This document shows positions 40,873-45,249 of a stretch of DNA of 57,666 nucleotides, piece by piece. This DNA is from a virus. Below the pieces are notes generated by a model, which was not told the DNA's origin, ran no database searches, and was given only the letters and a program-made list of their open reading frames with translations. Each line of letters starts with the position of its first letter. The first letter of the stretch is position 1. The stretch is taken from positions 1-57,666 of IMG/VR virus record IMGVR_UViG_3300043466_002594; one strand, 5' to 3'. The translations under genes were made by a program, and so were the position numbers.

Positions 40873-42699
40873 CTAGTTAGGTTTTGACTTATAATCAGGT
40901 ATACCTTTAACCGCTATTTCTACTATTTTTTGTTGTATTTCAGTTGTGTTTAATGCGTTTGTTAATTCTTGTGTTGATATACCAGGAGGAGCTTCAACTT
41001 TTATATTAACATCCACAGTTGATGTAGAATTTATATTTTGTGTATTGGTTTGTGGGGTAGTTTTTGTTGACTGGGTTTCACTGCCTTGATATTCCGCAAT
41101 TTTTGCTTTTATGTCAACTCCACTAACTTCTTTTATGTATCCAGAAAGTTCATCAACTAACGTATTTACAACACCGGCAAATATATTATCAGACTCTTCT
41201 AATTTTTTCCCTTGTTCGGCCAAATTTTGAGTTAAACTTTTCATTTGTTCACCTAATAAACCTCCGGCTTCTTCACCCATTTCCATGAATTTTCCTCCAA
41301 CATCAACATCTTTACCTGACAAAACATCTTTCATTAAATTCGCCATATCTTTAGGGTCCGCAATGTTAAACAACTCACGAATACTTTTTGCCGACATAAC
41401 ATCTCTATCGGTTACAACATCTGTCATATTTGTATAACCTTCTTTTATCGCCTCAGTAACTTCCTCTCCTATTTTAGATGTCGCCAACGCTCTTGAGGTT
41501 CTTCCGGCCATTTTAAATAAACTCGCTTCCATACTCTTTTGTAAGTCCAATTGTTCCTTAGCTAAATCTTCCATTGTTTTAGGTTTGGCAGCCTCTAATA
41601 TTTTGTTAATTTCTTCCGGACTATCTGTTCTAGCAAGTAACTCTTGTAAGTTTTGTTCTGTGCCATCAATTGATATTACATATTGACCATCCTTCATTTC
41701 GGACAAATTTGCAACCATTTTTTGTTGCTCTTCGGTCATAAACTCAGGAAATCTTATTTTAGACAACTTATTTTCTAATTCTGCGGAACCTAAAGCCATT
41801 TTTGTTAACTCTCCATACGCAATTCCAGTGGCTTGTTCTAATTCTCTCATTCTAAGTTTTCCCTCAGGTGCAATCTCAAATTGTCCGGCCTCATTCATAG
41901 TTACAAATTGTTGGGTCATTTGTACTAACTGATTTTGGAGTTCGGTCGGGTCATTAATAGATAAATCCATTAATCTTAGTGGGTCTAATAATTCAGACTG
42001 AGTTACTCCTAACCTTTGTAGAGCTGCAGACATTTCAATCGCCTTTTCAGGTTTATATAAATCCTCTGAAAATCTAAGAGTGGTACCCATATCAATTCTC
42101 AAACTAGTTGCCTGTGCCGCCATTTTAGCCAATCCATCAACTCCTCCTTGGAAGGTATACTTGTTCATAGCTTCCATATTATTTACCGCCTGCTCGCTTA
42201 CCGCCGCAACACTTAACCCCTGTTGTCTTGCGGTATCAACAATTTTTTGCATCCCATCGGCAACACCATAAGCGGATGTCCCAATATTTTTAAAACTAGT
42301 AAACAGTTTTCCAGCTTCTTGTCCAGTTACTTGTGTTGTTGCAAAAATGTCGTCGTATGATTCTGATGTTAACATAACTGACCTACCTAAACTATTAGTT
42401 AAGTCAGTTTGTATTTTTGCAACATCACCAAATTTACCACCCAAAGCCTCAACTGAAGTTGCGGCATCAACCAACGCAATTTTAATTCCCGCAATATTTT
42501 CTTTACCTTGTCCAAAAGTTTTAGCCACTTTGGTGGCGTCAGCGTCAATTTCTTGAACTGTGTTAACAAGATTTCTTAATCCTGGGTAAAAGTTGCCAAA
42601 AAAGGCTTCCATACTTTTACTACCTAATTTACTCACGAAATCATAAAAATCACTCGCCGCCTCCTGATTTGAGTTTTTTGGTGTTGGTTGATACATCAT
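40873..42699 (-). CDS. Tape measure protein (gp29-like)
   Basis: 608 residues (T4 gp29 is 590). It is helical and Ala/Glu/Lys/Met-rich, with tape-measure features (VDAATSVEALGGKFGDVAKI; GMQKIVDTARQQGLSVAAVS), and ends with a low-complexity Thr/Gln/Asn linker and a short C-terminal domain. Position is decisive: it lies directly after the frameshifting chaperone and two genes after the tail tube. If about 0.15 nm of tail length per residue applies, a tail of roughly 90 nm is implied. The protein starts with two Met codons; either could be used. A TATTTAT element lies 15 nt before the first. Confidence 0.78.
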   Translation of the reverse strand: MMYQPTPKNSNQEAASDFYDFVSKLGSKSMEAFFGNFYPGLRNLVNTVQEIDADATKVAKTFGQGKENIAGIKIALVDAATSVEALGGKFGDVAKIQTDLTNSLGRSVMLTSESYDDIFATTQVTGQEAGKLFTSFKNIGTSAYGVADGMQKIVDTARQQGLSVAAVSEQAVNNMEAMNKYTFQGGVDGLAKMAAQATSLRIDMGTTLRFSEDLYKPEKAIEMSAALQRLGVTQSELLDPLRLMDLSINDPTELQNQLVQMTQQFVTMNEAGQFEIAPEGKLRMRELEQATGIAYGELTKMALGSAELENKLSKIRFPEFMTEEQQKMVANLSEMKDGQYVISIDGTEQNLQELLARTDSPEEINKILEAAKPKTMEDLAKEQLDLQKSMEASLFKMAGRTSRALATSKIGEEVTEAIKEGYTNMTDVVTDRDVMSAKSIRELFNIADPKDMANLMKDVLSGKDVDVGGKFMEMGEEAGGLLGEQMKSLTQNLAEQGKKLEESDNIFAGVVNTLVDELSGYIKEVSGVDIKAKIAEYQGSETQSTKTTPQTNTQNINSTSTVDVNIKVEAPPGISTQELTNALNTTEIQQKIVEIAVKGIPDYKSKPN

Positions 42700-42728: not shown

Positions 42729-42893
42729 TTAGGTTTTAGGAGTATTCATCTCAATAACCTTATCTATCAGATATTTTCTGAAATAAGTCGGCATTGATGT
42801 AAAATCAAAGTAAGATGTACTAAGATTCTTAGATAATATAATGTATTCGTTCGCTAAAGAAATTTTATGTTTAGAAGAAAGGCCGAAAAAATT
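42729..42893 (-). CDS. Tail assembly chaperone, C-terminal part made by +1 frameshift
   Basis: This frame is open from just after a TAG at 42894-42896 to the TAA at 42729 and has no ATG until its last 21 codons. It encodes GLSSKHKISLANEYIILSKN and continues with helical STSYFDFTSMPTYFRKYLI. This looks like the helical second half of a tail assembly chaperone. It overlaps the end of the 251-residue ORF in the +1 frame, and the overlap contains TTTTTTC. Ribosomes shifting there would make a fusion of about 298 residues with 51 residues from this frame. Confidence 0.65.
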   Translation of the reverse strand, partial: NFFGLSSKHKISLANEYIILSKNLSTSYFDFTSMPTYFRKYLIDKVIEMNTPKT

Positions 42894-43626
42894 CTACCCC
42901 AAAGACGATGTCAACATCTATCTTATCTCCTGATGGGGTAATTACTGTTTTATTTAAATCTAACGACGGAATATTTTCTTTTATAAAGTTTTTAATGTAT
43001 TTGGAGTCACCTATTGGTAATTTATCTATAAAAAGAGAAATTTGACTTGTATCTGAGTTACCGTCAACTTCCATAATTTGTCTTTGTAATCTCATAGTCA
43101 CTCTAGGTGCAACCCTTCCTTTGGGGTAATTTTCTAATAATTTATCTATTTCAAACAATTCACCAAAAGATAAGGGTCTTAGTTTTACAGAACTGCCGCT
43201 AACCGGTAATTTCGTGGTAAAAGTACCATCTTCACTTGGTAAAATTTTCCCCTTTTTGATGTTAATTTCGTCCAATATTAGTGTTTCCTCAAACTCTTTT
43301 TTACTTTTTGGGTCTTCTAATTTGACTATATACTCAGGACCAAACGAGGTATTTCTCAAGAATAAAAGTATTGCCTGAATATCTTCTTCTAAGAGTTCCT
43401 CAGGTCTTAAGTCGTGCTCGTAAATTTTGTTCCTTAACAATGTCATAACTATATTATCCCTAGTACCCAATCCTGACATTAGATAGTTCTCATCGTTAGC
43501 CGTTAAATAACCAACTTTAATACTTTTCTTTTTTGATTTGTAAAACACTCCACCAGTTGGTAGAACCACCACGTCATGTGGTAAATTAAAATTTTCAGTC
43601 GCAGCCTTTATTAATGATTCATCCAT
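42871..43626 (-). CDS. Tail assembly chaperone / gp26-like protein, zero-frame product
   Basis: 251 residues. It opens with a short domain (VLPTGGVFYKS; KVGYLTANDENYLMSGL), has an acidic helical middle (LEEDIQAILLFLRNTSFGPE), and ends VEFFRPFF. Similar size and place are occupied by gp26-type proteins in T4-like phages, which appear to act as tail assembly chaperones before the tape measure. No metal site or membrane segment is seen. An AAAGGA lies upstream of the ATG, one of few Shine-Dalgarno-like sites here. The gene follows the mini zinc-finger gene by 4 nt and precedes the tape measure gene. Confidence 0.68.
   Translation of the reverse strand: MDESLIKAATENFNLPHDVVVLPTGGVFYKSKKKSIKVGYLTANDENYLMSGLGTRDNIVMTLLRNKIYEHDLRPEELLEEDIQAILLFLRNTSFGPEYIVKLEDPKSKKEFEETLILDEINIKKGKILPSEDGTFTTKLPVSGSSVKLRPLSFGELFEIDKLLENYPKGRVAPRVTMRLQRQIMEVDGNSDTSQISLFIDKLPIGDSKYIKNFIKENIPSLDLNKTVITPSGDKIDVDIVFGVEFFRPFF
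42885..42891 (-). promoter_or_regulatory. Slippery site for +1 ribosomal frameshift
   Basis: Minus-strand codons GAA TTT TTT CGG. tRNA-Phe on the second TTT can slip forward onto TTC. The next zero-frame codon, CGG, is expected to be slow in an AT-rich genome. The +1 frame is closed by TAG just upstream and the zero frame by TAA just downstream, leaving a window of about 20 nt. Confidence 0.6.
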
Positions 43627-43630
43627 AATA

Positions 43631-43765
43631 CTATTCCTTTAAATTGTCTTTTTGTTGATTTTCTTCGGGTTTTTTCTTATTCTTATTATGTCTATTCAAA
43701 AACTCTTCCTCGGTTTCGAAGACTTTACCACAAGTATTACATGTAAATCCTGTATTGTTTTCCAT
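43631..43765 (-). CDS. Mini zinc-finger protein
   Basis: 44 residues: TGFTCNTCGKVFETEEEFLN is followed by RH and a Lys-rich tail. The spacing F.C..C...F.....L..H is that of a C2H2 finger, but the final His is missing (NKNK follows), so binding would be through three ligands or a different partner. It starts right after a terminator hairpin and ends 4 nt before the chaperone gene. The function is unknown; it may be an assembly factor given its neighbours. Confidence 0.6.
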   Translation of the reverse strand: MENNTGFTCNTCGKVFETEEEFLNRHNKNKKKPEENQQKDNLKE

Positions 43766-43774
43766 AATAAAAAA

Positions 43775-43801
43775 AAATCCCATATTAATAATATGGGATT
43801 T
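43775..43801 (-). terminator. Terminator after the tail tube gene
   Basis: A 12-bp perfect stem (AAATCCCATATT/AATATGGGATTT) with a 3-nt loop, followed by T-rich sequence on the minus strand, 24 nt after the tail tube stop. This would give a high-level, separate tube mRNA, with partial read-through to the chaperone gene. Confidence 0.82.
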
Positions 43802-43824: not shown

Positions 43825-44313
43825 TTAGTAAACTAAGATACAACGGTCCATTCTCATTTTAGCCGTAACTGTTGCTAACTTATCATCAGAATAACTTAAA
43901 GAATTGAAATTAACATCATTTAAAAATGTACCCTCCAAAATCCATTTTTCTACGACAACGCCTGTAGGGTCCAACATTTCAAGGTCCACATTCTTTTTGT
44001 AACCCGCAGCATAACCCATACGACCTGTAACAGATTCCGCACATAAACGAACCCATTCCATAAGTGCCTGTGAAGCTGAAGGTCCAATTGGGTCTCTGAA
44101 TGTTACAGTTATTTCTCCCCACGTAAAACGACCGGCAACGTAAGTTGATGTATTTAGGAATTGAATTTCCTGAGTACCAATCGTAATGTGTGGTCGAGCG
44201 GCAGATTCAACGAACCACTCGTTTATACCTAATGTAGAAGGAAAACGTAAAATAAATCGGTTATTCCTTTTGGGTTCATAAGGTATGGGCATTTTCATTA
44301 ATAAATCAGCCAT
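43825..44313 (-). CDS. 19: Major tail tube protein (gp19-like)
   Basis: 162 residues, almost the same length as T4 gp19 (163). It has the typical layout: an N-terminal KRNNRFILRFPSTLGI strand, TIGTQEIQFLNTSTYVAGRF, then FTWGEITVTFRDPIGPSAS, and a final MRMDRCILVY strand. These match the tube fold of T4-like and Hcp-type proteins. It forms the inner tail tube through which DNA passes. A TATTTAT element lies 36 nt upstream and a strong terminator downstream, consistent with a separate abundant late mRNA. Confidence 0.88.
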   Translation of the reverse strand: MADLLMKMPIPYEPKRNNRFILRFPSTLGINEWFVESAARPHITIGTQEIQFLNTSTYVAGRFTWGEITVTFRDPIGPSASQALMEWVRLCAESVTGRMGYAAGYKKNVDLEMLDPTGVVVEKWILEGTFLNDVNFNSLSYSDDKLATVTAKMRMDRCILVY

Positions 44314-44430: not shown

Positions 44431-45249
44431 TTAATAAGGTTTTTTTACTCCTCCTGCAGTTGAAATTGTTTTAACTATATTATCTGGTTCATTTTCAAAA
44501 TGACTTTTAACTTTTTCTAAATTTCTTAGGTCGTCGTCAGAAAATCCAATTGTGGGTACAAAATTATTTGAAATTCTGTTCTTTAAATACGCCTTTTTCT
44601 CGATGTGTTTAGAAATTCTCTTAACATATCCCACAAACTCATTTAAAGCTTTAATTTTTCCTTCTTCGGGACTAACTGCACTTCCTTTACCATAAGTCAC
44701 AGGGTAAAAACGACACATATCTAAGTATTCTCTTATCATTTCTTTTTTTGATGATTTACCAATGCCTTCTATGTCTCTGAATTTTTCTAGGTTTTTTAAA
44801 AGTTCGTTAGAGTCTATCCCCATATGATTTGAAATTATCATATTATATACAGACTCTTTCATAACTTCAGGAGTATGTCCTCTAGCAGTCACGATTGAAA
44901 AAATAGAACCATTATTAATCGCCTCCACAAAATCAGACCAAGCGGGTCCTGGTTTTCCTAATAAAGAATCAATTATAAACTGTTTATCACCTTCCACACT
45001 GAAGTACCTAAATGGGTTTTCGGCAAAACCAACAATGTTATGTCCATCATATTCGAAGGGTTCCTTACCAATTTTCATTCTATATTCGGCAAAATCTTCG
45101 GTAGACATCCCAACTTCTTCATCCTTGTCATCTTTAAGAATTATTTTAGTTGGCATTATCAAAATATTATCATCCCAATCAAATGCATAATACTTCATGT
45201 CCGGAGTTCCGGTTTCTGTGATTCCTTCGTTAACTGATTTTAATCTCAT
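44431..45249 (-). CDS. HAD-superfamily phosphatase-like protein
   Basis: 272 residues. Motif I is YYAFDWDDNIL (Asp24 and Asp26), motif II SIFSIVTARGHTPE, a Lys-rich central region, and motif IV IGFSDDDLRNLE. All acidic residues expected for a HAD hydrolase are visible. Substrate unknown: it could act on nucleic acid ends, as do 3'-phosphatase members, or on a small phosphate. Oddly, it is set between the sheath and tube genes. An internal Met18 is an alternative start, but the ATG used here lies 8 nt after a TATTTAT element and just after a terminator. Confidence 0.75.
   Translation of the reverse strand: MRLKSVNEGITETGTPDMKYYAFDWDDNILIMPTKIILKDDKDEEVGMSTEDFAEYRMKIGKEPFEYDGHNIVGFAENPFRYFSVEGDKQFIIDSLLGKPGPAWSDFVEAINNGSIFSIVTARGHTPEVMKESVYNMIISNHMGIDSNELLKNLEKFRDIEGIGKSSKKEMIREYLDMCRFYPVTYGKGSAVSPEEGKIKALNEFVGYVKRISKHIEKKAYLKNRISNNFVPTIGFSDDDLRNLEKVKSHFENEPDNIVKTISTAGGVKKPY

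Follow-up and report, generated by a model that had tools for sequence, protein, structure and literature searches.

The stretch analyzed here (the window) is the 57,666-base virus record IMG/VR IMGVR_UViG_3300043466_002594, and all of the window features described below lie on its minus strand. A gene at positions 42871 to 43626 encodes a 251-aa protein that we predict to be a short tail assembly chaperone (TAC-N; the counterpart of T4 gp26) from its matches to PF12322 and phrog_150, an AlphaFold2 model, and a VIA-align search. Upstream of it lies a gp19-like tail tube gene (43825 to 44313; phrog_4542 tail tube, E value of 7.4e-25), and the next gene (40873 to 42699; 608 aa) is termed tape-measure-like by position only, its product having no significant family match in Pfam and PHROG profile searches. 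The gene following the chaperone gene is annotated as a tape measure in LIS04, SP-15, and Immuto, and the order tail tube, chaperone gene, tape-measure position occurs in the window and in loci L084 to L086 and L171, the tape measure being named in L085, L086, and L171.

Several further features of this region were recorded. Between the tail tube and chaperone genes, an inverted repeat (CCCATAT..ATATGGG) followed by a T run (43769 to 43797) looks terminator-like by eye; SP-15 has an annotated terminator at the matching place, which would separate expression of the two genes. Directly before the chaperone gene is an unlisted 44-codon open reading frame (ORF) (43631 to 43765) with a zinc-finger-like CxxC...H pattern, again by eye. 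Between the tail tube and sheath genes, a 272-aa protein (44431 to 45249) begins with YYAFDWDDNI, which, by eye only, we take to resemble a HAD-type phosphatase.

The chaperone gene (its reading frame hereafter the 0 frame) ends TTT GGG GTA GAA TTT TTT CGG CCT TTC TTC TAA. The initial annotation had read this end as a programmed +1 frameshift, and the layout on which it relied is confirmed in the sequence: a 251-residue ORF, a TAG closing the +1 frame just upstream (42894 to 42896), and then 54 open +1 codons (42893 to 42732), with the first ATG 21 codons before the end of that frame. Neither ATG, GTG, nor TTG occurs in the +1 frame from the TAG to codon 31 of the extension. Because the TAG closes the +1 frame upstream, entry into it is confined to the 20 nucleotides (42893 to 42874) before the 0-frame stop. 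Within these, the best-fitting slip site is the one named in the initial annotation, TTT TTT CGG (42883 to 42891), at which tRNA-Phe would move from TTT to TTC while a CGG, whose slowness is inferred from its rarity, is waiting; the P-site TTT occupies 42888 to 42886, the skipped C is 42885, and the waiting CGG is 42885 to 42883. Past this point, 51 of the 54 codons form the extension (42732 to 42884; stop codon at 42731 to 42729), for which we draw on dN/dS ratios, an AlphaFold2 model, and profile matches to the extensions of other branches. A one-base skip after the second TTT (TTT_C) reproduces the proposed 298-residue fusion (TAC-NC; within 42732 to 43626, with 43626 to 42886 joined to 42884 to 42732), which ends ...EFFGLSSKHKISLANEYIILSKNLSTSYFDFTSMPTYFRKYLIDKVIEMNTPKT; there is no protein-level evidence for this product. 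The -1 frame of the window is shut after 10 codons, and the classic TAC layout, a -1 extension behind X_XXY_YYZ, is not met.

The 0-frame protein matches PF12322 (T4_baseplate; E value of 8.7e-8, 32.6 bits against a curated cutoff of 24.5) and phrog_150 (E value of 1.7e-10). The extension matches no PHROG family, and its sole Pfam row, BrxL_N (E value of 0.053), lies below the cutoff. AlphaFold2 modeled the 0-frame protein with a pLDDT of 85.3 and a pTM of 0.79 (35 sequences) and the extension alone as three helices with a pLDDT of 89.2 (35 sequences), in keeping with the helical character assigned to it from the start. A VIA-align comparison of the 0-frame model with known chains placed 2ob9, the tail assembly chaperone of HK97, at the top (Z score of 5.6, 93 aligned residues, rmsd of 4.1) among 3 of 985 chains reaching a Z score of at least 2; since Z scores below 8 may reflect merely a common arrangement, we treat this modest match between a predicted and a solved fold as suggestive. 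Foldseek found nothing in the PDB at an E value of ≤0.001, and a sequence search of solved structures yielded two rows, both unrelated and with E values of at least 0.1. Against viral predicted structures, Foldseek gave 52 matches at an E value of ≤0.001; 16 of the 50 listed carry a baseplate or baseplate hub name (SP-15 and Aeromonas phage 25 gp26 included), and the rest are uncharacterized, otherwise named, or unnamed.

These names raise the possibility that the annotations are right, the protein being a structural subunit of the baseplate hub and the extension having some other role. The Pfam and PHROG names for the family speak of a baseplate or a "baseplate hub," and in the five annotated +1 records the 0-frame gene is labeled baseplate protein, baseplate hub, or hypothetical (the extension being unlisted in two of them and partly listed as a separate hypothetical protein in three). 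Against this stand the place of the gene before the tape measure, the two-frame layout, and the fold match to the HK97 chaperone. In addition, certain T4-like phages instead have a pair of TAC genes, one short and one long (PRFect, PMC10885494, in the portion available to us, citing Vladimirov et al. 2022); that these two genes are gp26 and gp51 is our own reading, which rests on their shared PF12322 membership. We consider the baseplate hub assignment unlikely. The functions preferred here, TAC-N and TAC-NC, are themselves inferences from where the gene lies, its family, the lambda model, and a fold match that is only modest, and there are no biochemical data.

Conservation of the slip site and of the two-frame layout in relatives had been set beforehand as a test of the frameshift. 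The group to which the window belongs (group A) was taken as the best 80 of 203 relatives, of which three (L028, L062, and L077) run off the contig, leaving 77 that are readable past the stop. All 77 have TTT TTT CGN with the extension in the +1 frame, the site being followed by CCT or CCG, TTC, TTC or TTT, and the stop, which falls one codon later in L039, L043, and L080. Matches over all 251 aa came from six IMG/VR contigs, each with its own metagenome id (L001 to L004 and L011 at 100% identity and L005 at 99%), and their slip site is identical letter for letter. Together with the window, group A comprises 44 distinct fusion proteins and 38 distinct 70-nucleotide contexts. Its extensions have a mean identity of 57% and a median dN/dS of 0.274 (46 distinct sequences, 449 pairs), and the 0-frame part has a median dN/dS of 0.248 (667 pairs); the corresponding values for extension and 0-frame part are 0.412 versus 0.259 in a second +1 group (group B) and 0.196 versus 0.207 in a cyanophage group. 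Judged by these ratios, the +1 extension in group A is under purifying selection. Sequence conservation begins exactly at the slip site. In the overlap, the 0-frame residues RPFF are kept, whereas variation among the +1 residues falls on 0-frame wobble bases; the 0-frame tail or its nucleotides are thus also constrained.

The same layout was found in other branches. Group B was assembled with Microcystis phage Mel-JY01 as the query (best 80 of at least 600 candidates; all but L123 and L152 readable), and a TTT_T site followed by a +1 extension occurs in all 78 readable loci. Among the 76 whose extension is complete, 71 read TTT TTT TGG CCT, 3 read CTT TTT TGG CCT, and 2 read TTT TTT TAC CCT; in the other two (L103 and L164), TTT TTT TGG is followed by an extension cut by the contig end. 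A query with LR756508 gave 20 loci, two of which (L283 and L284) end before the stop; 14 have TTC TTT TGG and 2 have TTT TTT TGG, all 16 with a +1 extension (truncated in L282, where the contig ends). Queries of IMG/VR with SP-15 and SagM-GXN1 gave one locus each. The +1 sites of named records are TTC TTT CGT in Streptococcus phage SagM-GXN1 (L083), TTT TTT CAC in Bacillus SP-15, TTT TTT AGT in Listeria LIS04, TTT TTT TGG in Microcystis phage Mel-JY01, AAC TTT CTA in LR756508 (L082), and TTT CTT TGG in Flavobacterium Immuto. The base following the P-site codon is C or T at every +1 locus examined except LIS04, the only one with a purine in this place. In no examined relative do chaperone gene and extension share a single unbroken frame, an arrangement that the initial annotation had named as a possible refutation. 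Its other refuting condition, loss of the shifted frame in relatives, did not arise either, that frame being conserved in group A and the other +1 groups.

The codon waiting at the site is among the rarest in the window. Across 30 long window ORFs (17,247 codons), the rarest sense codons are CGC, used twice, and CGG, used three times (one of these being the slip site), against 402 occurrences of AGA. In the 45 distinct loci of group A, the waiting codon is CGG in 21, CGC in 18, CGT in 5, and CGA in 1, such that 39 wait on one of the two rarest sense codons of the window. Elsewhere in the flanking ORFs, CGG and CGC make up 15 of 2,303 arginine codons; this background was taken only from loci with CGG or CGC at the site, with the site itself subtracted, and, the loci being related, no P value is attached to it. 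The presence of the two rarest codons at the waiting position is what a hungry-codon site predicts, the slowness of these codons being an inference from their rarity. The window thus meets the sequence criteria of a +1 site of the UUU_Y class, namely, a P-site codon able to re-pair forward, a rare (and presumably slow) A-site codon, and conservation.

Two candidate stimulators were rejected. Downstream RNA structure is not marked either in group A (mean z of -0.26 and -0.83 across 30 loci, with -1.17 upstream) or in group B (mean z of -0.24 and -0.70 across 30 loci, with 0.03 upstream), and the lack of marked downstream structure in group A means that the efficiency of the shift may be low. 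An internal Shine-Dalgarno sequence was also considered: upstream of the group A site, 22 of 31 contexts have GGGG, 7 have GGAG, 2 have neither, and none has GGAGG or GAGG, and the GGGG of the window is not at an RF2-like spacing; upstream of the group B site, 39 of 53 contexts have no such signal, 7 have GGGG, and 7 have some form of GGAG, GAGG, AGGAG, or AGGA.

If the extension were a separate gene with its own start, no fusion would be made. Loci of this kind do exist. In L274 and L280, the extension stands as an ORF of its own, in a different frame and with an ATG just past the stop of the chaperone gene; the site has decayed to TTC TTG TAT in L274 and is still CTT TGG in L280. In LR756511, the extension lies in the -1 frame behind T_TTT_TTC, and an ATG overlaps the stop. 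Start codons near the site are also common in the +1 frame, since between the upstream stop and extension codon 10, GTG or TTG occurs in 38 of 41 distinct group A contexts and ATG in 9, and in group B, ATG occurs in 33 of 64 contexts and GTG or TTG in 28, with none in 22. The absence of a +1 start codon near the site therefore fails as a group-wide rule in group A, being true for only 3 of the 41 contexts, the window included. These three contexts nonetheless speak against a separate gene, as do the lack of ATG, GTG, and TTG in the window from the TAG to extension codon 31, the onset of conservation at the slip site, and the conservation of the slip site itself, leaving independent initiation quite improbable as a general account.

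Two other mechanisms would lead to the extension through the T run. In a -2 slip, the Phe-tRNA on the second TTT would re-pair two bases back, which the six consecutive T's of the window permit and which reaches the identical frame with one extra Phe. The +1 layout, however, also occurs without a long T run, at TTC TTT TGG (14 loci), TTC TTT CGT (SagM-GXN1), and AAC TTT CTA (LR756508), where re-pairing is possible one base forward and not two back, and the near-invariant pyrimidine after the P-site codon (LIS04 apart) likewise counts against a backward slip, which we hold to be very unlikely. Slippage of RNA polymerase on the T run, altering the length of the mRNA, is compatible with the six T's of the window and the seven in most group B loci, but the layout persists in branches with T runs of only three or four, and the conserved rare CGN codon would be left without an evident role; there is little to recommend it. 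Finally, despite the homopolymer at the site, a sequencing error or decaying gene is refuted by the contigs of six metagenome ids that share the site, the 77 of 77 readable loci, and purifying selection in the +1 frame.

The family extends beyond the +1 branches. T4 gp26 and gp51 both belong to PF12322 (E values of 8.8e-64 and 3.9e-52, respectively), and gp51 is the longer of the two at the C terminus; the initial assignment to a T4 gp26-type gene therefore holds at the level of the family, but the counterpart of the window gene is the gp26/gp51 pair, short plus long, and not gp26 alone. T4 gp26 itself (L170, 9806 to 10429, minus strand) weakly matches phrog_1140 (baseplate hub distal subunit; E value of 9.4e-4), and a gp51 homologue in L263 (1501 to 2246) has its frame broken by internal stops in that record. 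In cyanophage S-SSM7, the -1 frame after gp26 encodes a 63-aa "gp51," and in Rhizobium phage RL2RES, a -1 extension stands behind T_TTT_TTG. With S-SSM7 gp26 as the query, we collected the best 80 of at least 600 candidates (L175 to L254; L225 lacks a stop). TTTTTTC, read NNT TTT TTC (with NNT varying; U_UUU_UUC), is present in 76 of 76 distinct contexts, all with an open -1 frame (cut in L206), and these cyanophage-type loci constitute a clean -1 series for comparison. GGAGG or GAGG lies upstream in 49 of 57 distinct cyanophage contexts, and downstream folding has mean z values of -1.61 and -1.30 (30 loci).

Profile comparisons link the extensions of the different branches. Those of groups A and B match each other (96.6%, E value of 6.5e-10), as do those of group B and the cyanophages (91.2%, E value of 1e-6), and a profile of five records (SP-15, LIS04, SagM-GXN1, LR756508, and LR756511) matches group B at 98.2% and reaches only 23% against the cyanophages. 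The cyanophage extension in turn matches the gp51 C terminus (97.0%), and a single family, PHROG 634, takes in the small ORF of the cyanophages as well as the C-terminal part of gp51. Direct comparisons with more distant partners gave less: the group A extension has no significant match to the cyanophage extension (0.3%) or to the gp51 C terminus (0.1%), nor has the group B extension to the gp51 C terminus (1.1%); fused group A reaches 54% against the fused cyanophage protein (E value of 1.3e-4), and the fused proteins of groups A and B reach only 0.3% and 4%, respectively, against full gp51. When all +1 branches were pooled (115 sequences), the extensions matched those of the cyanophages (91.3%, E value of 9.7e-7) and the cyanophages and gp51 together (92.6%), with reversed controls of 0.08% for the cyanophages and 0.14%, but did not match the gp51 C terminus alone (1.4%). 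Because the +1 extensions match those of cyanophages, and these match the gp51 C terminus, the chain to gp51 is transitive and runs via the cyanophages.

A tree of 52 selected rows, rooted at the midpoint, splits with support of 100/100 into one half holding the cyanophages, T4 and Aeromonas gp26 and gp51, and RL2RES, and another of 39 rows that comprises every one of the 36 with a +1 layout, LR756511, and the 2 with a separate ORF, which stand beside Immuto (99/96). Branches are long, and the program warns of long-branch joins; a single origin of the +1 state is compatible with this tree, which does not prove it. The initial annotation had expected a +1 case in a gp26-type gene to be unusual; the +1 layout is real, but it is no lone oddity, as 36 of 36 +1 rows fall in one half of the tree.

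We consider it highly probable that +1 programmed ribosomal frameshifting yields two tail assembly chaperones, a short one and a less abundant long one, in a T4-like phage with a contractile tail, a reading for which there are no protein or reporter data. Most ribosomes would read to the TAA and make the 251-aa TAC-N. A minority would stall at GAA UUU UUU CGG, with Phe-tRNA on UUU in the P site and a very rare arginine codon in the A site; the Phe-tRNA would then re-pair one base forward, from UUU to UUC, a better fit for its GAA anticodon, and translation in the +1 frame would add a 51-residue helical domain to give the minor, 298-aa TAC-NC. If the roles follow those of lambda gpG/gpGT, coating of the tape measure would fall to the short form and recruitment of tail tube subunits to the long one. 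That the shift occurs, how efficiently, and what both forms do are inferences; the two-frame arrangement and its persistence in relatives, the selection acting on the extension, the rarity of the waiting codon, and the assignment to the family are observations, and support from sequence comparison is strong, with none from experiment. Our confidence is lowered by the modest fold match and by the possible start codon near the site in many relatives. The latter counts against frameshifting, as do LIS04 without its pyrimidine, LR756511 with its -1 frame, and the separate ORFs of L274 and L280. We also lean, with less assurance, toward a broader reading in which half of the T4-like chaperone family has been +1 since its common ancestor, and the sister half is -1 or has two genes, all at one Phe-Phe hinge, with the group A shift driven by a starved CGG or CGC codon.

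Parts of this picture are already in print. In the accessible portion of a 2016 review (PMC5009743), G-T frameshifting is described as widely conserved "except T4," and UUU_Ynn as especially +1 prone in bacteria. Reporter values of 6% and 7% are given for two HK97-like TAC frameshift genes (PMC3711429, consulted in part), and poly-T -1 slippery sites are reported in T4-like TAC-N genes, citing Vladimirov et al. 2022, together with a -1 site in Adele's own family (excerpts of PMC12846349), such that at least a part of the -1 half of this family has been described before. The open PMC literature, which was itself only sampled and did not cover Vladimirov et al. 2022, showed no +1 shift among T4-like chaperones; within that sample, chaperone frameshifts, T4-like -1 sites, and scattered +1 cases are on record, and a T4-like branch with a conserved +1 layout is not.

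The review names T4 as the exception to tail chaperone frameshifting; many phages of the gp26/gp51 family carry a +1 frameshift layout; the direction of the shift implied by the layouts varies within one gene family at one hinge; and the extension became a separate ORF in one lineage (L274 and L280) and perhaps in LR756511. The sites UUU_CGN, UUU_UGG, CUU_UGG, UUU_CAC, and UUU_CUA form a natural series in which a bacterial ribosome would slip forward without a stop codon or marked RNA structure. Current annotation is incomplete, with the extension missed or split off in the annotated +1 records. On the broader reading, the ratio of long to short chaperone, and hence tail initiation, would be tied to the supply of one scarce arginine tRNA.

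Among known systems, T4 gp26 and gp51 resemble the window gene in their PF12322 membership and in comprising one short protein and one lengthened at its C terminus, but they are two separate genes, whereas the window has one gene and a predicted +1 shift. The gp26 and small "gp51" ORF of S-SSM7 and its kin belong to the same family and shift at the same Phe-Phe hinge; these cyanophages use a -1 U_UUU_UUC, often with GGAGG or GAGG upstream, and the window a +1 site with a rare codon. Lambda gpG/gpGT and the HK97-type chaperones are like the window gene in position and two-product logic, although the lambda shift is -1 and that predicted for the window +1 (as far as PMC5009743 could be consulted). 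A +1 shift in a TAC gene, as predicted for the window, has been proposed for other phages, namely, HSTV-2 ("very likely +1" in the same part of that review) and mycobacteriophage Karhdo, which is so annotated (PMC10793310, seen as an extract). Listeria PSA tsh and cps also shift +1 in phage genes but at CCC_UGA and CCC_UCC (PMC5009743). The closest likeness in codons is to the UUU_CGN motif of influenza A PA-X and the amalgaviruses (sections of PMC5009743 and PMC9559581), which has the same P- and A-site codons as the window and, in influenza A, no evident stimulators; it operates on eukaryotic ribosomes and in unrelated genes, and we infer that the resemblance is likely convergent.
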